64,000 bases of DNA from the NCBI RefSeq assembly GCF_019665785.1, contig NZ_CP081149.1, positions 186,001-250,000 on the forward strand, in the 5' to 3' direction. Origin of the DNA: Deefgea piscis (GTDB lineage: Bacteria; Pseudomonadota; Gammaproteobacteria; Burkholderiales; Chitinibacteraceae). The notes under the pieces are model-generated. The model was not told where the DNA came from. It worked only from the letters and a program-made list of their open reading frames with translations, and did not search any database. Both the position numbers and the translations under genes were made by a program. Position 1 is the first letter of the stretch. Each line of letters begins with the position of its first letter. Below, piece after piece: positions 1 to 57,825 of the stretch.

Positions 1-99
1 TCATATATAAAATTACAGCAGCAAGTTATTGTAAAAAAGACTCCTTATGTAACTAAGGCTCAAACTAATGAAAATAATCTAAATTTTTATGAATTTTGA
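1..99 (+). CDS. possible 3' end of a convergent gene (partial)
   Basis: The plus frame is open from the first base to a TGA at 97-99, giving 32 residues rich in Lys, Asn and Gln that end in FYEF. It would converge on the glycosyltransferase gene ending at 116. The stretch is AT-rich and too short to assign to a family. It may be the tail of a gene lying mostly outside the window, or chance. Confidence 0.3.
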   Translation, partial: SYIKLQQQVIVKKTPYVTKAQTNENNLNFYEF

Positions 100-115
100 T
101 TGAAATATAAAACTC

Positions 116-2050
116 TCACTTCTTATAACTTAAAACTAATTTTTCTAAAGACATCTCTAAATCTGTATTCCATGATCTAATTCCAATAGATATTGGACAA
201 CCAGATGAAATATCAAGAGTAACTGTTGCATTAATCTTTCCAGGCTTAGTATTCAAATAACGATACCACCCGATTTCTGAAGATGCAGACTTTATAAAAT
301 TCTTAATATTTGATGGTTCTTCTCCATCAAAAACCAATTTAACAAGCGCATTATTTCCGCGAATATCAGCAGGACAACTTAATTCATAACTAAGAATTAT
401 TTGCTCAATTCCTCGACAACTATCAGGAATACTGAAGTAAATAAATTTAGATGATAACGATTTAATTTCATCACTCAAAACAATGCTTTCAATAGAACCT
501 TCATTTGAGAATGGTGCTAACAAAGGAAACTTATCAAAAACATCATTTTTATTATTAACCAGCGAAAAACTATCCATATCTGCCAAAATAGCAGTCATAG
601 GATCAGTTTTTTTAGCTGTTGTATCTTGAACAATAGATCGTATCCAGAAAAAACATTCAGATCGTGAATCCAATATGCAAGGATACATTTTATCTACTAA
701 TACATGATTTACAGAGCCCGTAACCATTGACTCAGAGTAAAACTCCATATCTGCATGTTTTTTATTAACTCTCGCAAGTCCAATATTAATAAATGGTCGA
801 TGAACCGATCGAATATTAGTCATTTGATGTGATGATGTTTCTAAAAATCCAGTAAACCCTAAGCCAAATGAAACATAGAATCCAACATTATTACTTGTAA
901 TATACTGCGCAACGGAAATAAAATAATTTATATTAAGAAGGTCATCATCATCCAGATTTGCAACAGCAAATGTCTCATCAATTACTGTATTATCATTAAC
1001 TACCCTAATCACACTATCTTCTTCAACACAACACAATTTGATAAATTTGAATTCCAAATTAATTTTCTTTAGCGACTCTAAATATTGAGCAGGCAAAGTA
1101 TTTGAGTACTGAATCACATGCACGATATCACAATAATTTTGCCCCTCAGCGACAAGCGGAAGAGATAAATTAGAGAGAATATACAACCGTAAATCTAGTC
1201 TATCTGGACTATAAAGCTGATTAAAATATGAATCTTTATCGCCATTTTCAGTCTTAGATGCAACCCAACTTAAGCTACCTGGTTGAAAAATACTAAATCG
1301 CGTAACAAGAAACAACTTAGGTTTTTTATTCATTCTTTTAATTCGCCCTAAAACGTTATAGCCAAATTCATTATTAAAATGAAATGGTTGACATCCCCAC
1401 TTATGAACCAATGGCACATAGGCATTTATTTTATCAAAAACAATAACCTGCGATAATGGAACATCCTTTTTTACAATGGAATATATTCTATTAAGAATAT
1501 TATTATTTTTATCTACATGCCCAACATGAAACTTCTTTCCACAGTTTGTTTCTTTTGCCCAGAAAGGTGCATTAACAATGATCTTACTTTCACATCCTAG
1601 TTTAATTATCTCAGCCCAAAAATTATTCCAACCCAAGCAAAATAAATTAAATTTCTCATCTGAATCAGCAGCTATTCTTCGGCCTGAAGGAAGGATAAAA
1701 TTTGACTGCAATAATTCATCAGACAAGACAAATACTGCGCCATCATCAGTCAAAAAATAATCAAATCGCTCATCAATAAAATCCAAGATCAAAACATCAA
1801 ATTCAATACATTTTAAATCATTAATAAATTGATTATTAAGATCTCTAACTACAGCGCGTCGTCGAAATGGTGAGTTAATATCTACACCATCATAATCTAC
1901 AATCACGCCACCTGACGAATAAACACTGGCAAAACTAGAACGAGCAAAATAATCTTTTATTACAATACTGCCGTCCTTATCAAGTTCAAATATGTCACGA
2001 CTAATACAGCTACCAAAAATTAAAACTTTAACATTTGAACCATCATTCAT
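116..2050 (-). CDS. bifunctional polysaccharide protein: SGNH-like (DUF6270) domain plus putative rhamnosyltransferase
   Basis: This is a 644-residue cytoplasmic protein, probably acting in surface polysaccharide synthesis. The N-terminus has the motif FGSCISRDIF (residues 12-21), typical of DUF6270 proteins, whose GSC resembles an SGNH-hydrolase nucleophile elbow. From about residue 247 the VTRFSIF segment and a later DDDD stretch (LDDDDLL) match putative rhamnosyltransferases (PF11316 type). The last 120 residues look like a beta-sandwich. Its ATG overlaps the stop of the upstream gene by 4 bp, so translation is probably coupled. The gene is visibly more AT-rich than the rest of the window, which suggests horizontal acquisition. 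Domain names are from motif recall; the acceptor sugar is unknown. Confidence 0.7.
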   Translation of the reverse strand: MNDGSNVKVLIFGSCISRDIFELDKDGSIVIKDYFARSSFASVYSSGGVIVDYDGVDINSPFRRRAVVRDLNNQFINDLKCIEFDVLILDFIDERFDYFLTDDGAVFVLSDELLQSNFILPSGRRIAADSDEKFNLFCLGWNNFWAEIIKLGCESKIIVNAPFWAKETNCGKKFHVGHVDKNNNILNRIYSIVKKDVPLSQVIVFDKINAYVPLVHKWGCQPFHFNNEFGYNVLGRIKRMNKKPKLFLVTRFSIFQPGSLSWVASKTENGDKDSYFNQLYSPDRLDLRLYILSNLSLPLVAEGQNYCDIVHVIQYSNTLPAQYLESLKKINLEFKFIKLCCVEEDSVIRVVNDNTVIDETFAVANLDDDDLLNINYFISVAQYITSNNVGFYVSFGLGFTGFLETSSHQMTNIRSVHRPFINIGLARVNKKHADMEFYSESMVTGSVNHVLVDKMYPCILDSRSECFFWIRSIVQDTTAKKTDPMTAILADMDSFSLVNNKNDVFDKFPLLAPFSNEGSIESIVLSDEIKSLSSKFIYFSIPDSCRGIEQIILSYELSCPADIRGNNALVKLVFDGEEPSNIKNFIKSASSEIGWYRYLNTKPGKINATVTLDISSGCPISIGIRSWNTDLEMSLEKLVLSYKK

Positions 2051-4008
2051 TTACTATTAACCGAAGATAAATTAATAACATTAACTAAATCACTTATTAC
2101 GATCTTTTGACTATATCTATTATTTATTAAGCTAATCCCAGAAGAACCATCAACTGGAAATACTGCACTATTTGTTGATAGGATAAAATCTACAAGCTCA
2201 ACAGAATCACGCTTGATATATTCCTTTGGATATATGTATTCGACACCAGTCCACTGAAGAAAAAGACCAATACCACCAGAACAAAAAGCATCAGCTGGTG
2301 CAATATGAAAACTTTCTGGGATTTCTTCTGATTTACTCGTAGAAAGTACAAACCCAAAATTTTTGGCGGTTTTTTTAATATCTTGCCAACCAGAAAAAAT
2401 AACATGTTGTTCAAGGCAATTTTGCTCAATAAACTGCTGACAATCGGTAAAATAAGCCATTTCAACTGGATCTTTGGCAATCCACGGCAAATCTTCTGGC
2501 CGTTTACCGGCAATCTCCAAGGTATAGCGGCGATCTACTTTAACTAATTCATTCAGTATTTCTAAACCCTGCTTAAATCCTTTTCTCGACGGTAAAATAC
2601 CAATCATTGCCAAGCGAAATACTCGCTCAGGATCATCACTTTGTTCGTAGCCATTAACATCAATAAAATTAGGTAGCAACATCATTTTGCTACGTGGGCA
2701 GCCAATGCGCTCAATGGCTTTTTCAAAAAAGTATAATGATACCGCGAAAAAGCTATCAACCTTACTATGGTCAATTTTTTTGCACCACGGTGTGGTTAAT
2801 TCAAAACGATGTACCCGCACAAATAATTTTTGTTCAGCCATTTTATGCTTTGCATACCAAACTGCATTACCTAATAGCCATTCGCAAAAAATAATATCGG
2901 CCCAAGCAAGTAATTTACGGCTGCGCGCTTCATCATGCGCATTGTGGCCAGTCCATTCATCCACTTCAATTTGGAAATACTGCGATAAATCAGGTAAAGC
3001 CGATTGAATAAACTTTAAGTCATAGCCCGCCACTACTAACCTAGGCTGTATCATTACATTAAATTGCTCATAATCTTGCGCATACAGCGTATCTAAAATT
3101 GATTTTAGCCGCTCATTATATGTAAAGCTGGAGATTAATTTTTGATGCTGATTGATAAACTCAGCAAACTTGATAAATAACTCAAAATCAATGTCATGCG
3201 TATAAAATTTAATCAGCGCAAGCAATGCCGATTGCAAACCAATACGCAAACGAATTGATAAATAAGATAAGCCAATACGATTTAATCGCTCTTCCGCTTC
3301 AGTCCATACTGTTAAATGATTTTGTAACTCACGCGCACCATATTTTTGAGTAACGGACTCTTCACCATTTTTTGATTTATTATAAGTAAATGTTGGGTGA
3401 TCAATGTATGCAATTTCTTGGCATGCAATCAAGCAATCAATAAGGAAAATCGTATCTTCCCCCATCCGGATATGCTCTGGCCATTGAATCGAATTTTGGC
3501 GCAAAATACTAGCGCGTATCAGTTGCGGCACCGTAGTGCTTTGCGATGAAATAATTTTAACTAGCCGCTCATCTCTGCTAGTAATTTGATTAAAGCTCTC
3601 GACTCGATTCATTGCTTTACGCGTGTGGCCATCATCAGCAATCAAATAGCCACGGACCAGATCAGCATTATTTTGCTCAGCAAAATTTAAATAGCTTTCT
3701 AAAGTATCGGAAAATAGCGAATCATCACAATCTAAGAAAAAAACATAATTACCAACAGCAACATCTAAACCGACATTCCTTGGGCGCGAGGCACTGCCTG
3801 AATTAGCATCGGTTTGAAATAAATACCAATTCTTGCGTTTAGCTACCTCTAAATGCATCAGCGCCAAAGTATTATCTTTTGAGCAATCATCTACAAAAAT
3901 CACTTCAAATTGATCTGCCGGTAGCGTTTGCTCATCGAGCGAGCGCAAACATGCGGTAATTTTATTGGCAGCGTTATAGCACGGCACAATCACTGAAACT
4001 TTAATCAT
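2047..4008 (-). CDS. two-domain glycosyltransferase (GT2 + GT4-like)
   Basis: This 653-residue protein fuses two glycosyltransferase folds. Residues 1-240 are a GT-A/GT2 domain: it opens with VSVIVPCYNA, has the nucleotide-binding VDDCS, and carries a metal-binding DCDD where family members have DXD. Residues about 325-640 resemble a GT-B/GT4 enzyme, with the PNFID and SRKGF..GLEIL segments before the donor-binding region and SEEIPESFHIAP near the end. Such fusions usually add two consecutive sugars to a repeat unit. The gene lies 3 bp after the upstream gene and overlaps the next by 4 bp, so it belongs to one operon. Sugar specificity cannot be read from the sequence. Confidence 0.8.
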   Translation of the reverse strand: MIKVSVIVPCYNAANKITACLRSLDEQTLPADQFEVIFVDDCSKDNTLALMHLEVAKRKNWYLFQTDANSGSASRPRNVGLDVAVGNYVFFLDCDDSLFSDTLESYLNFAEQNNADLVRGYLIADDGHTRKAMNRVESFNQITSRDERLVKIISSQSTTVPQLIRASILRQNSIQWPEHIRMGEDTIFLIDCLIACQEIAYIDHPTFTYNKSKNGEESVTQKYGARELQNHLTVWTEAEERLNRIGLSYLSIRLRIGLQSALLALIKFYTHDIDFELFIKFAEFINQHQKLISSFTYNERLKSILDTLYAQDYEQFNVMIQPRLVVAGYDLKFIQSALPDLSQYFQIEVDEWTGHNAHDEARSRKLLAWADIIFCEWLLGNAVWYAKHKMAEQKLFVRVHRFELTTPWCKKIDHSKVDSFFAVSLYFFEKAIERIGCPRSKMMLLPNFIDVNGYEQSDDPERVFRLAMIGILPSRKGFKQGLEILNELVKVDRRYTLEIAGKRPEDLPWIAKDPVEMAYFTDCQQFIEQNCLEQHVIFSGWQDIKKTAKNFGFVLSTSKSEEIPESFHIAPADAFCSGGIGLFLQWTGVEYIYPKEYIKRDSVELVDFILSTNSAVFPVDGSSGISLINNRYSQKIVISDLVNVINLSSVNSK

Positions 4009-4011
4009 TGC

Positions 4012-5508
4012 TTATCCCTCAAAATTAACGCTATATCCTAAGGCATTAATATTTTGCCCTTTCATTAATAAAGCCGTATTAAAAAATTGCCGAGGGGCAA
4101 TGATATTACGAACAGTAAAGCTATTTTGCCGAGTATATTTATTCCCTTGATCCAGCAGCAATGGGATTTCTTTCATATATTCAGTATGCAAATAGGCTTT
4201 TTTAAATTGGCTAGCAGGCAATAAATCATCATTATCAAGGATTGCAACAAACTTGGTCTCAATCACTTTTTTATCAAATGGCGCATATTTATCTAGATAA
4301 CTCAGCGCAATGGTATTTACTAAACCACGATTGTATTTAGTAAAAAGTGGTGCCAATTCAATATCTTCAAACCCATAGCCAAAAACTAGCAATAAAATTG
4401 AATTATTCATTTGCAGTGATTTGTGATACGCAATAAACCGCTCAATTTCTGCTTCACTATTAACCAGCGCCACAAGTGTTAAATCTTTTTCATCACTCGC
4501 GTACTGAAAGCCAATTGAATCAAGAATAAATTTAAATCGCTCTTTATAGGTATGCTTGGCTAATACTTCATGTAAGGCAGCATCTCGCATCGTTTCAATA
4601 TCATTTTGCTCAATCTGCGTCAAAGCATTTGGATTTGCTTCAATATCAATCGCAAGATGGCCAAATTGAGATGCAATACCATCATTGCTATTACTAATTA
4701 CCAAAGTATTGCAAGACATTAATTCATAAATTCGTCTGGCAAACATTGTTTTGGAATTTTTAACGGTATTAATCGTTAGCGATACGGTGCTGGCTTTATA
4801 GATTTTTGCAATATCCTTAAAAGCCACTGCAGGGCGCGTCATTTTATTATATGGCGCAGGGAATTTATGCAAAGGATCTTCATCTTGCGAATATCGATCA
4901 TAAATCACTAAATCATGCGTTTTACGAATCGATGAAAAAATATCCAGCATATCGTTCGATCGCTCAATATGATTGGCATACCAACTACCGGCAAAAATAA
5001 CGTCGTTGGTTCTTGACTTTACTTCTTCTGGATTAAATAAACGGGGTTGCGTTGCAAATGGTAAACAAAATACATTGCTCCGCAAATAATCTCGCTTATA
5101 GGTTTCTACACATTCAATTGCAGATGTAAAAATGTAATCAAATAAAATTGCCGTTTTTACAAAATCATGCGTTCTATCTGTATAGTGCGTAGGATCTTCT
5201 TTATTCCAAAACACAGTAGGAATACGTTTTTCTCGGCAATATTTTAAAATATCTAATAGTACAGTGCGATTTTCTTTTGTGAAGTTTTTAGATGCATAAA
5301 TAATACCCTTCCAAGGTCGGGTTTTACTGCAAACACCTGACCATGCGGACTCACAAAAAAAGATCTCTGGTTTTTCTTGCTCAAATTTCTGCCGCCAATT
5401 ATTAGGCTCGATGACAATTGCATTAAATTCAGGCGAAAAGCATTCATAGGTAAATTCATCGCAAATTAATGCAACTTTAATATCAGACATATTCTTCATT
5501 GCAATCAA
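4012..5508 (-). CDS. CgeB-like glycosyltransferase with C-terminal extra domain
   Basis: A 498-residue protein. Residues about 1-340 follow the CgeB/DUF3880 plus Glyco_trans_1_2 pattern: WNKEDPTHY near residue 103, the FAGSWYANH segment starting the second Rossmann half, and a C-terminal RRIYELMSCNTLVISN donor site. Residues 350-498 add a stretch with LDNDD that resembles part of a GT-A fold. It overlaps the upstream coiled-coil gene by 4 bp (ATGA). Alternative starts exist 9 and 18 bases further in. It is probably a cytoplasmic sugar transferase in the same polysaccharide pathway; donor and acceptor are unknown. Confidence 0.75.
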   Translation of the reverse strand: MIAMKNMSDIKVALICDEFTYECFSPEFNAIVIEPNNWRQKFEQEKPEIFFCESAWSGVCSKTRPWKGIIYASKNFTKENRTVLLDILKYCREKRIPTVFWNKEDPTHYTDRTHDFVKTAILFDYIFTSAIECVETYKRDYLRSNVFCLPFATQPRLFNPEEVKSRTNDVIFAGSWYANHIERSNDMLDIFSSIRKTHDLVIYDRYSQDEDPLHKFPAPYNKMTRPAVAFKDIAKIYKASTVSLTINTVKNSKTMFARRIYELMSCNTLVISNSNDGIASQFGHLAIDIEANPNALTQIEQNDIETMRDAALHEVLAKHTYKERFKFILDSIGFQYASDEKDLTLVALVNSEAEIERFIAYHKSLQMNNSILLLVFGYGFEDIELAPLFTKYNRGLVNTIALSYLDKYAPFDKKVIETKFVAILDNDDLLPASQFKKAYLHTEYMKEIPLLLDQGNKYTRQNSFTVRNIIAPRQFFNTALLMKGQNINALGYSVNFEG

Positions 5509-6131
5509 GCCTTATCTGTTAAAGCTGTATTAGATTTACCTTTACGCTGTTTAATTACTGTAAAAATACTAACTGGTAATTTCACAACGTCACTGGCTTT
5601 TTTCACTGCTAATAATTGGCTGCCAATTTGATAAACTAATTTTTCTGAATATCGATCTACCATTTTTTGCAATCGGGTAATTTCTTTTTCTTTTCGTGCC
5701 ACCAGCCCAACCAATTTCACTTCTTTGGCTTCTTTCTCTTTTAGCTTTTCTCTAGTTTCTTGTAAAAGATTTTGCTCATACATATAGGCCGATGTACTTT
5801 TTTCTGATGTTTTTTTATAATTAATTGATGCAGACTCAGCGACACTCACTTTTTGCTTCAATTTTATTTCACTGGATTGCAAATCATTAACCTTCTTAGT
5901 TAATGTTGTGATTTCCAATGCTTGTGCATCACATTGCAAGCGCAGTCTAGCCAACAGTGTTTTTTGGCCTTCGGTACTTTTAGCTAGTAGCAACAGCTCA
6001 GCTTGAAGATTATTATTTTCTGCAATTGCAGCACTTAACTCTAATGCTTGCTGCTGTAATTTTTGTTCAAGCAACGAATTAGAATTATTTTTGCCACTTG
6101 TATTTTTAATTGAAAAATTCTCTCTTATCAT
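5505..6131 (-). CDS. coiled-coil protein of the polysaccharide locus
   Basis: A 208-residue protein with no recognised catalytic domain. Residues about 20-165 show continuous heptad-like spacing of Leu/Ile/Val with many Lys, Glu and Gln, predicting a long coiled coil. There is no signal peptide or clear membrane segment. It is the first intact gene of the minus-strand glycosyltransferase operon and overlaps the next gene by 4 bp. Coiled-coil proteins in such loci often act as chain-length regulators or scaffolds for transferases; that role is inferred from position only. Upstream (6132-6295) is AT-rich and separates it from the wecC remnant. Confidence 0.6.
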   Translation of the reverse strand: MIRENFSIKNTSGKNNSNSLLEQKLQQQALELSAAIAENNNLQAELLLLAKSTEGQKTLLARLRLQCDAQALEITTLTKKVNDLQSSEIKLKQKVSVAESASINYKKTSEKSTSAYMYEQNLLQETREKLKEKEAKEVKLVGLVARKEKEITRLQKMVDRYSEKLVYQIGSQLLAVKKASDVVKLPVSIFTVIKQRKGKSNTALTDKA

Positions 6132-6295
6132 TTTCCCAAGCCCTATTTTTTTGCGATATTTTTTTAGTTAATTCAAAGCAATTTTTAATCGAATAAATCG
6201 CAGCAAAAATCACTGCGATTTATTGATAGAATTTTAATTTTTTTATATTGCGATTAAATTACTTTAAAGTTTTTTACTTAACAGAGAATTTTCAA

Positions 6296-6639
6296 TTAAA
6301 TCCAAATCCCTTTTGCATCGACTAGGGTTTGGCTTGATTTGATGATTGGTTTTTGCTGTTTAAATTCAGCATGCTCAACCAGCATGACCAAAATATCAGC
6401 TTTTAACCCCGCATCCAAATCAACTAATTTGCCACCAGCAAATTCCAGCATGGCTGGGCTGCTTTGTACATTTGGCTCAACAGCAACCACTTGCCCCGGA
6501 TACTCGCTTAATAGTCCTAACGTAATATCCAGTGATGGGCTTTCGCGTAGATCGTCAATGTCGGGTTTAAAGGCCAAGCCAAAGCAGGCAATTTTAATAT
6601 CGCTTTTTTTCTTGCCTAATTTAATTTGTTCCTCAACCG
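6296..6639 (-). pseudogene. wecC: 3' remnant of UDP-N-acetyl-D-mannosamine dehydrogenase
   Basis: About 114 codons remain, encoding only the C-terminal UDP-binding domain of a UDP-glucose/UDP-ManNAc dehydrogenase. KIACFGLAFKPDIDDLRES is diagnostic of WecC. The full family protein is about 420 residues, so the NAD-binding and central catalytic domains are missing. The break coincides exactly with the terminal repeat of the IS5-type element at 6640, and the frame runs a few codons into it. No upstream part is found on the far side of the element. The host has presumably lost this copy, or an intact gene exists elsewhere. Confidence 0.85.
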
Positions 6640-7688
6640 GGCTTTGTTGCACAAATCAACTAGAGGGTAAGTCACCCCTAACCCCAGACGGATTTATCCC
6701 ACTCTTACCGTCATTGGCGTACCCAGTTGCGTGAAGCGATTTAAGATCGCTGCACGCACTTGCAACTCAGCCACCTGACGATCAAAGTCCCGCGCCATCA
6801 CTCGTTCACCCAATAGTTTGAAGCATTGCATTTTGGTTTCTACCAAGCTACGTCGATGATACCCAGACCATTTTTTCCAGATGGCCCTACCCAAGTATTT
6901 GGTCGCCCGTAAGATGTCATTCCGCGCTCTCGCTCCGGCCGTATTTTCTTTCCGAAATTGTGCATTTTTCCGTGTAGGAATAATCGCTGCCGCACCTCTT
7001 GCCGCAATGGCATTGTGGCATTCTTTGGTGTCGTAAGCGCCATCACCGTAAATCGCCGCAATCTGTTCAGACTCGGGAATCTGATTCATCAATTCCGGCA
7101 AAATGGGCGCATCACCTGTTTTGTTATCGGTGACCTCGATGGCACGAATTTCAAGGGTTTCGGCATCAATGCCGAGGTGAACTTTACGCCACTGCCTACG
7201 ATATTCAGCGCCGTGTTTTTTGGTTTTCCATTCACCTTCACCGAGCATTTTGATGCCTGTGCTATCGACGAGTAAATGCAGTCCACCCTGACTTTGACGG
7301 GCCGGAATCGTGACTTTCAGCGTTTTTTGTCGACGAGAGATCGTGCTCGAATCAGGAACGTTCCAATCTAAGTTGGCGAGCCGAAGTAGGCTTTCAACCA
7401 TGCCGGTTGCTTGGCGCAATGCGAGGCCAAACAGGCATTTGATGGTGAGGCAGAATTGAATGGCAGCATCGCTAAAAGTGGGGTTTCGTCCGCGCTTGCC
7501 AGTGGGCTCAGCAGCCCATTTCAGCGCTGGATCAAGCCAAATCATTAATGCGCCACGCGATTTCAAAGCTGCGTGATAGCTTGGCCAGTTGGTGGTTTTG
7601 TATTTGTGGGGTGCTGGTTTGCTCATATCGCTATTCTATATCGCTATTCTACCAGCAGCATTGCGCCGCTGATTTGTGCAACAAAGCC
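6640..7688 (-). mobile_element. IS5-family (IS903 group) insertion sequence, 1049 bp
   Basis: The ends are perfect 18-bp inverted repeats: GGCTTTGTTGCACAAATC at 6640-6657 and its complement at 7671-7688. Length and ends match the IS903 subgroup, which normally makes 9-bp target duplications. The flanking 9-mers differ (CCTCAACCG on the left, AATACAACG on the right), so this copy is not flanked by a simple duplication. It carries one intact transposase gene and interrupts wecC. Confidence 0.9.
6694..7626 (-). CDS. IS5-family transposase (IS903 group)
   Basis: A 310-residue DDE transposase that cuts and pastes the surrounding 1049-bp element. It has a DDE_Tnp_1 domain: first Asp in LLVDSTGIKM, second in YGDGAYDTKE, and the Glu in RRSLVETKMQCFK with the usual Y/R spacing. 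Length and sequence style match IS903-group enzymes. The frame is intact and fills the element, so it is potentially active. It reads in the same direction as the disrupted wecC. Confidence 0.95.
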   Translation of the reverse strand: MSKPAPHKYKTTNWPSYHAALKSRGALMIWLDPALKWAAEPTGKRGRNPTFSDAAIQFCLTIKCLFGLALRQATGMVESLLRLANLDWNVPDSSTISRRQKTLKVTIPARQSQGGLHLLVDSTGIKMLGEGEWKTKKHGAEYRRQWRKVHLGIDAETLEIRAIEVTDNKTGDAPILPELMNQIPESEQIAAIYGDGAYDTKECHNAIAARGAAAIIPTRKNAQFRKENTAGARARNDILRATKYLGRAIWKKWSGYHRRSLVETKMQCFKLLGERVMARDFDRQVAELQVRAAILNRFTQLGTPMTVRVG

Positions 7689-7771
7689 AATACAACGCCG
7701 ATATTTTGGGTAAAAATATCTTGCGCAGCGTGGCTGATTTTTTATTTCAAATATATTACATCAATATTTAA
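7688..7771 (+). pseudogene. possible gene tail abutting the insertion sequence
   Basis: Right next to the element the plus frame reads QYNADILGKNILRSVADFLF and continues to a TAA at 7769-7771. It looks protein-like but is too short to identify, and its start would lie inside or beyond the element. If real, it is the 3' end of a gene truncated by the same event that removed the front of wecC. It may also be chance. Confidence 0.2.
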
Positions 7772-8439
7772 CATTACGCCGTCATGCACACAATCCAAAA
7801 CTTACAACGATTAATTTCCTACTTTTTAAATCTGATTAATATCAATATTAACAATTAATTAATTGCTAACTAATTAATGCGAAATACTTACAGCATTCTC
7901 TAATATTGATTCAATTTTTAGTATTTATTTTTCTGATTACCGCCACGCTAAAAAAACAAATACCAAAATAAAACAACAACTTAAATTCCATTAGCACATC
8001 TAATATATGCCGTACGAGACATGCCAGATCAATACCTTGCACCACACACAAGCACACCTGTCGTACATGACAAATATACTTACAAAACGGCACTCGTATT
8101 GGTTCACCATGCTTTCCACCAACCGGTTGGTAAGAAATTAATTTTTGTTTTTTTGCAACACATGTGTTTTATTACACATTGACTCTAATACCAATCTTGT
8201 ATTTCTCAGCATTTAGCCTATATAAGCCCACCCACAAAACCATGCGCATTATGCGTAGGGTGTGCAAATCCGCAGGGTTTGCGCACGCGGATACGCCGCA
8301 AGCCAAGAAATTCCATGTATCGATATAAAACACAATAAGAAAGCTATGAGTAAATATGTACAGATACATAACTACAGCAAGTGACAGCATCAGGCTTATC
8401 TACTAGCATAAAGCCACCTATCTCTGGCGAAAAAGCACT
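7772..8439. other. gene-free AT-rich interval
   Basis: No convincing coding region is seen on either strand. It contains an AT-only inverted repeat around 7855-7880 and a perfect 14-bp palindrome ACCAACCGGTTGGT at 8118-8131 that could be an operator. A GC-richer hairpin-like stretch lies at about 8240-8300 (GCGCATTATGCG and TTTGCGCACGCGGATACGCC). The promoter of the efflux operon must lie in the right part, but no clear -35/-10 pair was identified. Confidence 0.5.
8118..8131. promoter_or_regulatory. 14-bp perfect palindrome, possible operator
   Basis: ACCAACCGGTTGGT is a perfect inverted repeat in otherwise AT-rich DNA about 310 bp upstream of the efflux operon. Palindromes of this size can bind TetR- or MarR-type repressors, which often control such pumps. 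No regulator gene is present nearby, so the assignment is speculative. Confidence 0.25.
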
Positions 8440-53950: not shown

Positions 53951-54982
53951 ATGAAAGCCTTTATTTTTCCTCTACTTTTTGCCAGCTCACTCACAATGGC
54001 CGCCAGCGATGCGCCATTACAGCGCTATCAATGTGATGAAGGCCAATCATTTACAATCAGAATGACGACACCTGACTCGCTTGAATTACTTAGTGGTTGG
54101 ACGTTCCAAAAACTACCCCATGTTATTTCGGCGTCTGGCGCCAAATACAGCGACGGTAGCACCACCGTGTGGTTAAAAGGCCAAGGTGGCTTTTTGGAAG
54201 TCGATGAGGTGATTGTGGCCAATAATTGCACCTTGATCTCTGCTGATGAACCGCTCAACCCGATTCGCGACGCCGCATCTGGCTTGATTTTTATTCCGCC
54301 AGAACGTTGGACGGCCAATAATGTGCAAGTAGACGTGAAATCAGGCAGTGAGATTCCATTTTATGGCGAAACGGCATTACAGCAGTTTGAATATCGTTTT
54401 CGTGGCGGCAATGATTCAGAGCATTATCCTTTGCTCGATATTCTAGTTTTTCCAAAATCAGCATGGACCCAACTCGAGAAAAACCCACCACCGGGATTGG
54501 TACTTGGCGATGATGGTCAGCGCGTTTATTTAGCGCAATTGCCAAGTAATAATCCATTTAATCCGGCCAGCAAAAATGGCAAAGAATTTATCGCTTTGCA
54601 AATGACGCCTGCCGAAGTGAAACAAGCATTTTCAATGTATGGGATTGTGAAAAACAAAGCGATTGAGAGCGTGAGCGCTAAAGTCATGTGGCTGGATCGT
54701 CGGCTTTATCCAGGCGCGGTGCTCACCGTTGAATTACGCGATGTGTCCAAAATGGATGTGGCATCTGAATTGATTGCGAAAAAAGTAATCACTTTAACGC
54801 AAGGCACGCCACCGACGGTAACGCTGAAATTTGCCCCAGAAGCGATTAACCCTAAGCATCGTTACAGCATTAGTGCGCGTTTAGAGCAAGATGGTAAGCT
54901 GATTAAAATTAGCGACACTCAAACGCCAGTACTCACGCAGGGCGCGCCACGCGAAACCAGCATTATGCTTAAAGCAATCTAG
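53951..54982 (+). CDS. secreted protein of unknown function
   Basis: A 343-residue protein with a signal peptide (MKAFIFPLLFASSLTMAA). Residues 20-100 resemble lysozyme-inhibitor-like domains (YQCDEGQSFTIRM ... SGAKYSDGSTTVWLKGQGGFLEVDE), as in MliC-type proteins. The C-terminal region (about 235-340) looks like a YbaY/lipoprotein-type beta-sandwich (VTVELRDVSKMDV, SISARLEQDGKLIKISDTQ). It may therefore be a periplasmic inhibitor-like or stress protein; both domain guesses are from motif recall only. Confidence 0.6.
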   Translation: MKAFIFPLLFASSLTMAASDAPLQRYQCDEGQSFTIRMTTPDSLELLSGWTFQKLPHVISASGAKYSDGSTTVWLKGQGGFLEVDEVIVANNCTLISADEPLNPIRDAASGLIFIPPERWTANNVQVDVKSGSEIPFYGETALQQFEYRFRGGNDSEHYPLLDILVFPKSAWTQLEKNPPPGLVLGDDGQRVYLAQLPSNNPFNPASKNGKEFIALQMTPAEVKQAFSMYGIVKNKAIESVSAKVMWLDRRLYPGAVLTVELRDVSKMDVASELIAKKVITLTQGTPPTVTLKFAPEAINPKHRYSISARLEQDGKLIKISDTQTPVLTQGAPRETSIMLKAI

Positions 54983-55116: not shown

Positions 55117-56238
55117 TTAGCACAGTACTAAATTATCGCGATGAATCAGCTCAGCTTCGTCGATATAGCCCAAAACAGCTTCAATTTGCCCAGTTGGCTG
55201 ACGTAAAATCCGCTGCGTTTCTTGCGAGCTGTAATTGATTAAGCCACGGGCCACTTCAATCCCTTCGGGATTTAAACAACGCACCACTTCACCGCGTAAA
55301 AATTCGCCTTCAACCGCCACGACCCCAATCGGTAATAAGCTGGAACCCGACTGCGTTAAAGCCCGAACAGCCCCCGCATCGAGCGTTACGCTGCCTTTGA
55401 GTTGCAAATGGTCGGCAATCCATTGTTTTTTGGCGGCCAATGCACAAGTGACTGAGCTCAATTGCGTGCCGATCATCTCGCCACTGGCTAAACGAGTGAG
55501 TACCTGTTCTTCACGACCACAAGCAATGATGGTTGCTGCCCCGCTACGGGCCGCACGTTTGGCGGCGATGATTTTGGTATACATACCCCCCGTACCCACG
55601 CTAGAACCTGCGCCACCGGCCATAGCTTCCAAGCTAGCATCACCCGCTACACCGGTTTGTACCAAGGTGGCACTCGGGTTGCTACGTGGGTCGGCAGTAT
55701 ACAGCCCAGTTTGGTCAGTCAAAATGACTAAGGCATCGCCTTCGATCAGGTTGGTTACCAAAGCGCCGAGCGTATCGTTATCGCCAAATTTAATCTCAGC
55801 AGTCACTACGCTGTCGTTTTCATTAATGATGGGAATCACACCCAATTGCAATAAGGTCAGCAAAGTTGAGCGAGCATTGAGATAACGCGTGCGATCAGAT
55901 AAGTCTTCATGCGTAAGCAGTACTTGCGCGCACATTAAACCGTGTTGGCGAAATGCACTTTCATAGGCATGGCATAAGCCCAATTGTCCTACTGCAGCAG
56001 CCGCTTGTTTTTCATGCACTGCGCTGGGTTTTTGCGTCCAACCCAGTCGAGCAATGCCTTCGGCAATAGCGCCTGAAGAAACTAAAACAACTTGTTTGCC
56101 TAGTCGAGTCAGTTGAGCAATTTCTTCAGCCCAGCGTGCTAGTGCGGCGTGATCTAAACCTTTGCCTTCATTGGTCACTAGGCTAGAGCCGACTTTAATC
56201 ACAATTCGCTGAGCTTTAGCCAAAATTGACGTTTGCAT
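55117..56238 (-). CDS. proB: glutamate 5-kinase ProB
   Basis: A 373-residue enzyme that phosphorylates glutamate in the first step of proline synthesis. The amino-acid-kinase domain (about 1-260) has [42 protein letters not shown] and [15 protein letters not shown]-terminal PUA domain (about 280-365) contains [15 protein letters not shown]. proA is not adjacent. It begins 36 bp after the small gene at 56274 on the same strand. Confidence 0.96.
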
Positions 56239-56273
56239 AAATAACTATCCTTGCGCAGCGCATTAACGCTGTA

Positions 56274-56501
56274 TTACAGCTGAAATAAATAAAAGCCTTG
56301 GTGGTGCAATGCCGCTAACGCCGTTGCCGGATCAAAACTCACATTGTCGTTGCCAATGCTGATTGTGCGGGTACGTAGGAAATAGACTTTTTCATAGTCT
56401 TTGTCATCAATCGGCAATTGGCTTTGATCGACATCGATATCGACTGGCAAAACGAGGCACTTACTCGGGTTGCTCATGCTTTTAAAAATATTCACTTCCA
56501 C
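56274..56501 (-). CDS. small protein of unknown function upstream of proB
   Basis: A 75-residue protein, with alternative starts at ATG codons at residues 1 and 9. It has no signal peptide and is mildly acidic. Segments: KVYFLRTRTISIGNDNVSFDPATALAALHHQGFYLFQL. (given here only in part: LRTRTISIGND and ALAALHHQGFYLF). I do not recognise the family. It is cotranscribed with proB, to judge from spacing and direction, and borders the DnaA-box cluster. Confidence 0.55.
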   Translation of the reverse strand: MEVNIFKSMSNPSKCLVLPVDIDVDQSQLPIDDKDYEKVYFLRTRTISIGNDNVSFDPATALAALHHQGFYLFQL

Positions 56502-57207
56502 GTTCAGCTCCTTATCGCCATTGCGCTGTTGAGCGCATTCCAGCGGGGTTCAATTTTGGCGCAATTTGCCGGTAAAGCCTAGCTTTTTTAGACACTTTCT
56601 TGGGTTTAGTCAGCAGGGTTTTAGCGACTTATCCACAGATTTTTTCAAGAAAAAAGCTTTGTCTTATTGGTTTTTATTTTAAATTAGTAGTAATAAATAA
56701 GGGCTCGATTGAGCTGTGGATAAGTGCTTATTGTGTATAACTTACAAATGCTTAGCCAAATGATGAATTCGGTATATACACGAAAAATGAGGGTCTTGTT
56801 TTTGGTGATGAATTTAAGCCCCTGCTACAAATAATCGCTTACACCCAAATCATGCCCAGCAAACCCACGCGTGATTCACCTAGTTATCCCCAATATATCC
56901 ACGATAATTCCACAAAAAAATAATTACCCACAGGGTATTTTCTTACCGCCCTTGATACAGCAATGCCTTGGTAGAGATACATAGCCAGCGTATTTTTATG
57001 CCAATTACATTGGGATTAATCGTGATGAAATTTGAGCTATGCTGATTTGATAGCAAGGAGGAGATGAATTAAGTCCGGCTAATACAGAGTATGAATTTGC
57101 TTGAATGAATGACATTCACAGAGATTGATATTGAGCTCAACTCACTAATGCAATAGGAAATAGCCAATGACCGCGCAACAAGCAACTGACTTTAGTAGTG
57201 CTTTATT
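56502..57207. other. 700-bp gene-free region with origin-like left half
   Basis: The left half (to about 56945) holds the DnaA-box cluster. The right half is unstructured, apart from an AAGGAGGAG ribosome site followed by ATGAATTAA at 57064-57072 and a 14-codon frame at 57167-57211 next to cheD. Confidence 0.6.
56629..56942. other. origin-like cluster of DnaA boxes with DnaA-trio and AT-rich stretch
   Basis: There are two perfect DnaA boxes: TTATCCACA at 56629-56637 and its complement TGTGGATAA at 56715-56723. One-mismatch boxes lie at 56732-56740 (TTATACACA, complement strand), 56884-56892 (TTATCCCCA) and 56934-56942 (TTACCCACA). Between the perfect boxes lies an AT-rich stretch (56640-56700). 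Its part nearest the second box reads TAGTAGTAATAA (56685-56696), the DnaA-trio pattern, separated from the box by the GC-richer GGGCTCGATTGAGC. This is the arrangement of a bacterial basal unwinding region. dnaA itself is not in the window. Confidence 0.6.
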
Positions 57208-57211
57208 TTGA
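57167..57211 (+). CDS. possible 14-residue leader peptide of cheD
   Basis: ATG preceded by AGGAAA opens a frame MTAQQATDFSSALF that stops with TGA inside TTGA, where TTG is a possible cheD start. The geometry would allow translational coupling. It may equally be chance. Confidence 0.25.
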   Translation: MTAQQATDFSSALF

Positions 57212-57825
57212 AAACGCTACTAACGCAGCAGCGAGCGATGTCGCCGCCAGAGACCAATGCCATGAAACAACTGGAGCGACATGCGCTGCACATTCATTCT
57301 GGCGACATTGCAGTAGAAAAGCATAAACCCATCATGACTTTATTGGGTTCATGTATTTCGGTGTGTTTATTTGATCCGCAACTCAAAATCGCCGGCATGA
57401 ATCATTTTATGCTGCCTAATTTTGGCGCTCGCGCGGGGCAAGATGTGGAGTCATTGCATTCCGGAATGGCATCAATGGAGCTATTGGTGAATGCCTTACT
57501 AAAACAAGGCGCAAAAAAAGGCCGTTTGCAAGCAAAGGCCTTTGGGGGGGGGAATTTAGTACCCAGCGCGGGGAAAAAAACCATTGGTGAGACCAATATT
57601 GAATTTACTCACCAATGGCTCAGTGCCGAAGGAATTCCATTATTGGCCAGCGATTTGGGTGGCAATTGCGCCAGAAAAATCGTTTTAAATCCGACTTCTG
57701 GCGAAGTGCTATGCCGGCAAATTCAACCGCAACAAATCCAAAAACAACAACTAATTCAAGAAGAAGAAAATTATAAAACTAAGCTAATCCAATCTCTCAA
57801 TCATCGTAAAATTGATTACTGGTAA
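57208..57825 (+). CDS. cheD: chemoreceptor glutamine deamidase CheD, with G9 tract
   Basis: CheD deamidates receptor glutamines and tunes chemotaxis. The catalytic Cys is in LLGSCISVCLFDP (Cys49) and the His in GMNHFMLP (His66). The family AFGGxN motif is AFGGGN, encoded by nine consecutive G (57544-57552). The C-terminus has an unusual Gln-rich tail (QIQPQQIQKQQLIQ). The start is uncertain: TTG 57208, ATG 57238 or ATG 57262 (MKQLERHAL). No other che genes adjoin, but two chemoreceptors are in the window. Confidence 0.9.
   Translation: MKTLLTQQRAMSPPETNAMKQLERHALHIHSGDIAVEKHKPIMTLLGSCISVCLFDPQLKIAGMNHFMLPNFGARAGQDVESLHSGMASMELLVNALLKQGAKKGRLQAKAFGGGNLVPSAGKKTIGETNIEFTHQWLSAEGIPLLASDLGGNCARKIVLNPTSGEVLCRQIQPQQIQKQQLIQEEENYKTKLIQSLNHRKIDYW

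Follow-up and report, generated by a model that had tools for sequence, protein, structure and literature searches.

A candidate second, oriC-like DnaA element conserved within the genus Deefgea

The textbook view is that bacterial chromosomes have one origin of replication each. Putative double oriCs have been described, however, for Ralstonia pickettii 12D, Ochrobactrum anthropi, and Dehalobacter sp. CF, with the two sites 150-882 kb apart (Gao 2015, PMC4403523), the Dehalobacter pair being the one with 150 kb between its members. In the passages of that paper drawn upon here, the case for published double origins is made from counts of boxes and from skew, one genome at a time (PMC4403523), and P. 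aeruginosa is cited for two autonomously replicating origins, only one of which is essential in the laboratory (cited in PMC4403523). With the single-chromosome Vibrio cholerae strains NSCV1 and NSCV2, as presented in the portion of the source consulted, a second origin may be silent though functional (PMC6284228). Other DnaA-box loci are regulatory, and of these datA is described, in the text cited, as always close to oriC in E. coli (PMC4585315). As for the parts of origins proper, the search program for the basal unwinding system (BUS) places a spacer of 0-16 bp between a sole DnaA box and its trios, 13 being most common, and the spacer as counted may exceed 16 if a second, weaker box lies between (both from the passage cited of PMC8287927).

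The locus considered here is from Deefgea piscis. The stretch of DNA that was analysed, i.e., the window, is 64,000 nucleotides long and corresponds to positions 186001-250000 of a 3,575,158-bp single-contig genome (G000). The genus Deefgea stands in the NCBI taxonomy within the Chitinibacteraceae, Neisseriales; the terms family, order, and class are used here for GTDB groups, of which order and class may differ from NCBI's. The family sample consists of 43 genomes, that is, 7 Deefgea, which are a small and mutually related set, plus 36 others, and the class-level sample consists of 369. Consensuses for the DnaA box, trio, parS, and IHF, along with duplex stability values, are those of general background knowledge. 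Within the window is a short, gene-free region which, with a probability of about 0.6 and as judged from sequence comparison, is a second, subordinate, Deefgea-specific, oriC-like DnaA element, one that would assemble DnaA and could unwind. A literature search on this Deefgea locus found no paper; one of the papers searched names both Deefgea and oriC, its subject being ushA-like genes.

The element is bounded by two perfect DnaA boxes. The left-hand box, TTATCCACA (56629-56637, plus strand), lies within the arm ACTTATCCACAG (56627-56638), and the right-hand box (56715-56723, minus strand) lies within the arm CTGTGGATAAGT (56714-56725), these arms forming a perfect 12-bp inverted repeat which is the only repeat of at least 12 bp reported in 56500-57240. 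Proceeding leftward from the right-hand box there is, first, a GC-richer spacer (56703-56714, 58% GC). This is followed by a DnaA-trio tract, TAGTAGTAATAAATAAGG (56685-56702, plus strand), which consists of 3'-[G/A]AT-5' repeats as read from the right-hand box, and which includes TAGTAGTAATAA at 56685-56696, i.e., 5' of that box on the plus strand. Next comes an AT-rich tract (56638-56684, 81% AT), which by composition and stability is a candidate DNA unwinding element. The right-hand box serves as anchor of the trio run, with in-register trios AAT AAT GAT GAT TAA (3'->5') beginning 18 bp from it. In terms of duplex stability, no other 60-mer of the window beyond its AT-rich first 8 kb is as unstable as 56640-56699; six sites within those first 8 kb are weaker at 60 bp, and at 80 bp two other sites, one at 61.6 and one at 61.9 kb, match it or are weaker still. 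Those first 8 kb (1-8000) are themselves low in GC, at 31-42% versus 43-54% for the remainder, and bear large glycosyltransferase-like ORFs along with a transposase-like ORF at 6694-7626 (names from reading of the ORFs); the region looks like a surface-polysaccharide island.

Three further boxes, each with one mismatch, lie to the right: TTATACACA (56732-56740, minus strand) and TTATCCCCA (56884-56892, plus strand), each found with identical sequence in three of the seven genomes, and TTACCCACA (56924-56932, plus strand), which is a perfect TTATCCACA in G001, G002, and G005 and is absent from this place in G003, G004, and G006. At those places the three are seen only among G000, G001, G002, and G005. 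Boxes with at most one mismatch number five at the element of G000 and three to five across the seven genomes, with only the two perfect boxes having a common place and spacing in all seven. Overlapping the 56924 box is a short hairpin, TACCCACAGGGTA (56925-56937), which has tails like those of a terminator on either strand. An earlier note on this DNA had pointed to two perfect boxes in opposite orientation, to gene-free surroundings, and to a box, spacer, trio, and AT-rich order, and all of these are borne out, the order holding in the 56715 box's own reading direction, on the minus strand. Its three one-mismatch boxes are likewise present, though not genus-wide. No gene was detected in 56502-57207, and a small ORF that had gone unnamed (56274-56501, minus strand) lies between proB and the element.

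Conservation was assessed by alignment of the seven Deefgea loci, with Fisher tests against noncoding flanks, of which 88 of 365 positions are invariant in the seven genomes. None of the 18 positions of the two boxes varies among the seven Deefgea (p 3e-11 versus flanks), and 15 of the 18 trio-tract positions are likewise invariant (p 5e-7); for the AT tract the count is 17 of 47 (p 0.057). Within the trios proper only two positions vary, and as both are G/A changes, all seven genomes keep four trios of the [G/A]AT class. The spacer is invariant at just 1 of its 12 positions, that is, its sequence is free and its length is fixed. Conserved motifs together with a spacer that is free in sequence and fixed in length are the trace which is expected from protein assembly on DNA.

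The geometry TTATCCACA-77-TGTGGATAA is found at one locus in each of the seven Deefgea genomes and in none of the 36 other family genomes, with controls at 0. A DNA comparison of the region gives matches in 7 of 41 genomes, these being the seven Deefgea, and in 0 of 34 outside the genus. None of the 36 other family genomes has such an element upstream of proB (1.2 kb being covered in G052); in two of them a single perfect box lies within 1.5 kb there, and two have at least three boxes with at most one mismatch. Among the genomes compared, the element is specific to the genus Deefgea.

Boxes by themselves can arise by chance. The window as a whole has 17 box matches with at most one mismatch versus 13.3 expected, and 18 of 100 shuffles reach 17. 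Five of those 17, however, start within 296 bp, and random placement put 5 of 17 inside 304 bp in 0 of 20,000 trials. With 37 perfect boxes placed at random in the genome (41 minus the 4 of oriC, below), a pair falls within 86 bp in approximately 3% of trials, and for that reason the pair alone is unconvincing; what convinces are the trio run and the conservation, on which a chance box pair was rejected.

The oriC of this genome likely lies at 352 kb, 110 kb from the element. Perfect TTATCCACA boxes number 41 genome-wide, versus 11 for a reversed control, and the densest group of them consists of 4 within 131 bp (352285-352415). GC skew, which was sampled in stretches of G000, G002, and G003, goes from -0.076 for 342-352 kb to +0.160 for 352-362 kb. 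The cumulative skew minimum, as taken inside 20-kb stretches around the matching clusters, along with a coarser look in 4-kb steps, is left of the first oriC box by approximately 1.3 kb in G000, 1.1 kb in G002, and 7 kb in G003. Sites resembling parS are present at 329, 331, and 344 kb, with 0, 1, and 1 mismatches, respectively, 86-102 kb from the element; two others, at 1024 and 1280 kb, have 2 mismatches each, and 2 sites come up in the reversed control.

The oriC box cluster, with 6-7 boxes of at most one mismatch in Deefgea, is found approximately 100-220 bp upstream of a GTPase gene that I take to be ylqF/rbgA-like, a name given by reading, with the Pfam match being MMR_HSR1. At least two boxes with at most one mismatch lie within 450 bp of the ylqF-like gene in 40 of 43 family genomes and, outside the family, in 0 of 25 usable loci (28 of 57 order-level genomes having had the gene). 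The chromosomal origin of the family thus seems to be upstream of this gene and, in the present genome, to be unlinked from dnaA. The latter is at 669945, 318 kb past the likely oriC, with one perfect box upstream and with no trio run under the trio rule, a rule which calls for a box with at most one mismatch, a spacer of at most 20, and at least four [G/A]AT trios.

That same rule, as applied to 584 kb of G000 (27 pieces, 16% of the genome), is passed by only two loci, oriC and the element. With oriC (352256-352415) one reads, from 352256, TAGTAGTAATAGATAAGG, 10 bases, and then CTGTGGATAA, and with the element TAGTAGTAATAAATAAGG, 11 bases, and then CTGTGGATAA; the oriC trios are GAT AAT GAT GAT, at 17 bp from the box. 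A module pattern, TAGTARTARTA-8..30-TGTGGATAA, when searched for genome-wide in G000, likewise finds only oriC and the element. Across the family there are 16 matches to the pattern, in 10 of 43 genomes and with 0 for the reversed control, consisting of the 7 Deefgea ylqF-linked oriCs, 6 window-type loci, and 3 ylqF-linked oriCs of the sister genus g6. The window-type copy of G004 is off the pattern by one G-to-A in the first trio, which keeps its trio class. In the class-level sample of 369 genomes, G000 supplies 2 matches and one other genome 1, there with an unlike spacer, the reversed control giving 1.

How the element came to resemble oriC may be viewed in two ways. The element core scores higher against the g6 oriC than against Deefgea oriC in five of seven genomes and lower in G002 and G005 (e.g., g6 versus own oriC, 44.8 versus 29.0 in G003 and 36.7 versus 35.1 in G000), and a trio spacing of 18 is common to the element and to the oriC of those g6 genomes that pass the trio rule (3 of 6). 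Once the motifs were masked, local alignments pairing 4 of the 7 elements each with 6 of 43 ylqF-upstream regions (24 pairs) yielded no similarity beyond that of shuffles, of which 14 in 200 did as well as the best pair. The element may therefore descend from an oriC copy or may be a product of convergence. In the first case an ancestral oriC copy would have been reduced to the parts that do the work, and in the second the element would have converged upon those same parts.

Whether the element regularly fires can be judged from strand composition. Skew is approximately -0.08 to its left and -0.05 to its right, with the window's cumulative skew still falling past it, and at the element there is no GC-skew switch in G000, G002, or G003; there is, in consequence, no sign of regular firing. 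As strand composition follows oriC, and not the element, the element probably does not start most replication rounds. Between the element and oriC of G003, at C1:3072150-3160000 (3.07-3.16 Mb), skew is near zero, which perhaps is a rearrangement. As a sign of firing this was dropped, the weakness extending to the left of the element (2.90-3.03 Mb). No comparable broad zone of weak skew is seen in G000 or G002; G000 does have two isolated 10-kb bins, at 196 and 310 kb, with skew slightly above zero.

A mechanism may be proposed as follows. ATP-DnaA would bind to the minus-strand box at 56715 and would extend from there leftward across the trios, from 56696 to 56685, with the AT tract then melting at 56640-56699. 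DnaA on the convergent 56629 box, on the far side of that tract, could anchor or instead limit the open region. The element might thereby hold ATP-DnaA near the origin, or else load helicase only if oriC fails or if DnaA is in excess. The first of these would be a DnaA 'sink' and the second a conditional origin, and the data fit both about equally. A stronger version of the latter is that Deefgea possesses a natural, DnaA-dependent second origin, 110-136 kb from oriC, that has been selected in all seven genomes as a conditional or backup, i.e., dormant, start, which is an idea to be held only tentatively, as an improbable one.

Of the alternatives, the one that survives best, while still being unlikely, is that the element is a regulator of DnaA activity (one like datA or DARS, or else a cluster that titrates DnaA), to which DnaA binds but without melting, with the origin-proximal position setting how much ATP-DnaA is left for oriC. 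The position indeed is origin-proximal, at 110, 109, and 136 kb in the three of seven genomes having both loci on one contig, and E. coli datA and DARS keep their distance relative to oriC, according to the passages cited (PMC4585315); the absence of a firing signal in skew also is as this explanation would have it. Pure titration, though, needs neither trios nor an AT-rich tract, and yet the trio tract is conserved. There is, in addition, no exact IHF consensus in 56240-57300 (versus 7 elsewhere in the window, as based on a motif of general knowledge), and there are but two universal boxes here versus the five plus IHF of datA or the three-box core of DARS, as these are given in the text consulted (PMC4585315). 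The earlier note had offered a second DnaA-binding locus among its options, and that option is strengthened by the element's presence in 7/7 Deefgea, with the difference that this locus, unlike datA or DARS, has the origin's trio module.

More doubtful is that the element is a DnaA-controlled regulatory region for its neighbours, the small ORF and proB along with cheD where the latter is present. The small ORF (56274-56501, minus strand, 75 aa, GTG start) lies between proB (AA_kinase plus PUA; 55117-56238, minus strand) and the element, the left box being approximately 128 bp upstream of it; ORF and element co-occur in the same 7 of 43 family genomes, with the ORF in 0 of the 36 others, and proB is separated from the box by a fairly constant distance, which in six genomes is 385-391 bp and in the seventh 425 bp. 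A scan of 56240-57300 for sigma-70-like promoters nevertheless found none, where shuffles average 2.9, and a repressor or activator site would by itself leave both the trio tract and the match to oriC unexplained. As the ORF product has no match in a Pfam search and has 3 relatives in the protein collection, the small ORF does not explain the site. On the other side, cheD (57208-57825, plus strand) adjoins the element in four of seven genomes; in G003, G004, and G006 it is not beside the element, yet the element is retained there. An RNA element was considered too and rejected, there being a single match, at chance level (E 0.91). Elsewhere in the window, at 53951-54982, MliC lysozyme-inhibitor and YscW-type domains (Pfam) are joined in one protein.

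Very unlikely is that the element is a relic, i.e., a second or onetime origin that is now in decay and serves no function. It does have fewer boxes than oriC, with three of them not genus-wide, and it lacks a skew signal. Two of its boxes, however, are invariant and at exact spacing in seven genomes, while the flanks fell to 88/365, and invariant boxes with exact spacing amid changed flanks speak of maintenance rather than of decay.

That the element could be the main chromosomal oriC, as displaced from dnaA, is scarcely credible. It has the box, spacer, trio, and AT-rich order, and a missing dnaA neighbour is no bar because the likely real oriC also is apart from dnaA. The earlier note thus was right that an origin here might be separate from dnaA (318 kb, for the likely oriC), but its suggestion that the element is the chromosomal origin fails: skew is negative on both sides, and switches instead near 352 kb in G000 and at the matching site in G002 and G003; the element has 2 perfect boxes versus the 4 at 352285-352415; the parS-like sites at 329, 331, and 344 kb are near the latter; and ylqF boxes occur through most of the family versus an element found only in Deefgea. 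As evidence against an origin-type locus, that note had named a skew minimum and a larger cluster next to dnaA elsewhere, without conservation in relatives. A skew switch and a larger cluster do exist elsewhere, beside ylqF rather than dnaA, while the cluster in the window is conserved within the genus and absent outside of it. Its plasmid-type origin, along with any phage or viral one, was rejected, with no direct repeats of at least 12 bp in 56500-57240, no match to plasmids or phages at an E-value of 1e-5, the exact module absent from viral contigs, and no rep-like Pfam family among the 7 window proteins scanned.

Returning to the reading of the element as a second, probably subordinate DnaA site, what appears to have been kept of oriC at a site other than the main one is a single box as anchor, the trios, an AT tract, and a further box beyond that tract. 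Whether Deefgea possesses a usable, spare DnaA origin or instead an origin-like 'decoy' controlling DnaA is a question that is directly testable in these bacteria.

In comparison with described systems, the element is like the BUS of B. subtilis and H. pylori oriC in its order, strand polarity, [G/A]AT trios, and adjacent AT-rich tract, going by the passage cited (PMC8287927). Its box at 56715 is perfect where BUS allows up to two mismatches, and it has the at least three in-register NAN trios that BUS calls for. It differs in that it lies outside of oriC, 110 kb off, in its spacer of 18 bp to the in-register run, versus the 0-16 bp rule for a sole box and the 17 bp at the oriC of this same genome, in having a convergent box beyond the AT tract, and in that its unwinding is predicted.

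With the double oriCs of Gao 2015, as these are presented in the portion cited, there is in common a second DnaA-box cluster on one chromosome, use of both being unproven there and a candidate here (PMC4403523). The second site in Deefgea differs in possessing oriC's trio module, as compared across seven genomes of a genus, and in not being beside dnaA, hemE, or parB. With E. coli datA, DARS1, and DARS2 the likeness is one of noncoding DnaA-box loci with a conserved distance to oriC within a taxon (PMC4585315, in the text cited), while the Deefgea element is without an exact IHF consensus, has fewer universal boxes, and has in addition an origin-type trio module that is not described for those loci in the same text (PMC4585315). 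V. cholerae NSCV1 and NSCV2, per the excerpt drawn upon, similarly carry a pair of origins on a single natural chromosome, and one of the pair can be silent (PMC6284228), with the Deefgea second site a candidate for the same. In those strains a chromosome fusion brought in the second origin, which is of chromosome-2 type and has its own rctB (PMC6284228), whereas both Deefgea sites are of DnaA type, with no rep-like gene seen beside the element. Going by the passages cited, the combination of an off-oriC site, the same trio module as oriC, and genus-wide conservation is found in none of the systems compared, and so sets the Deefgea element apart from them.
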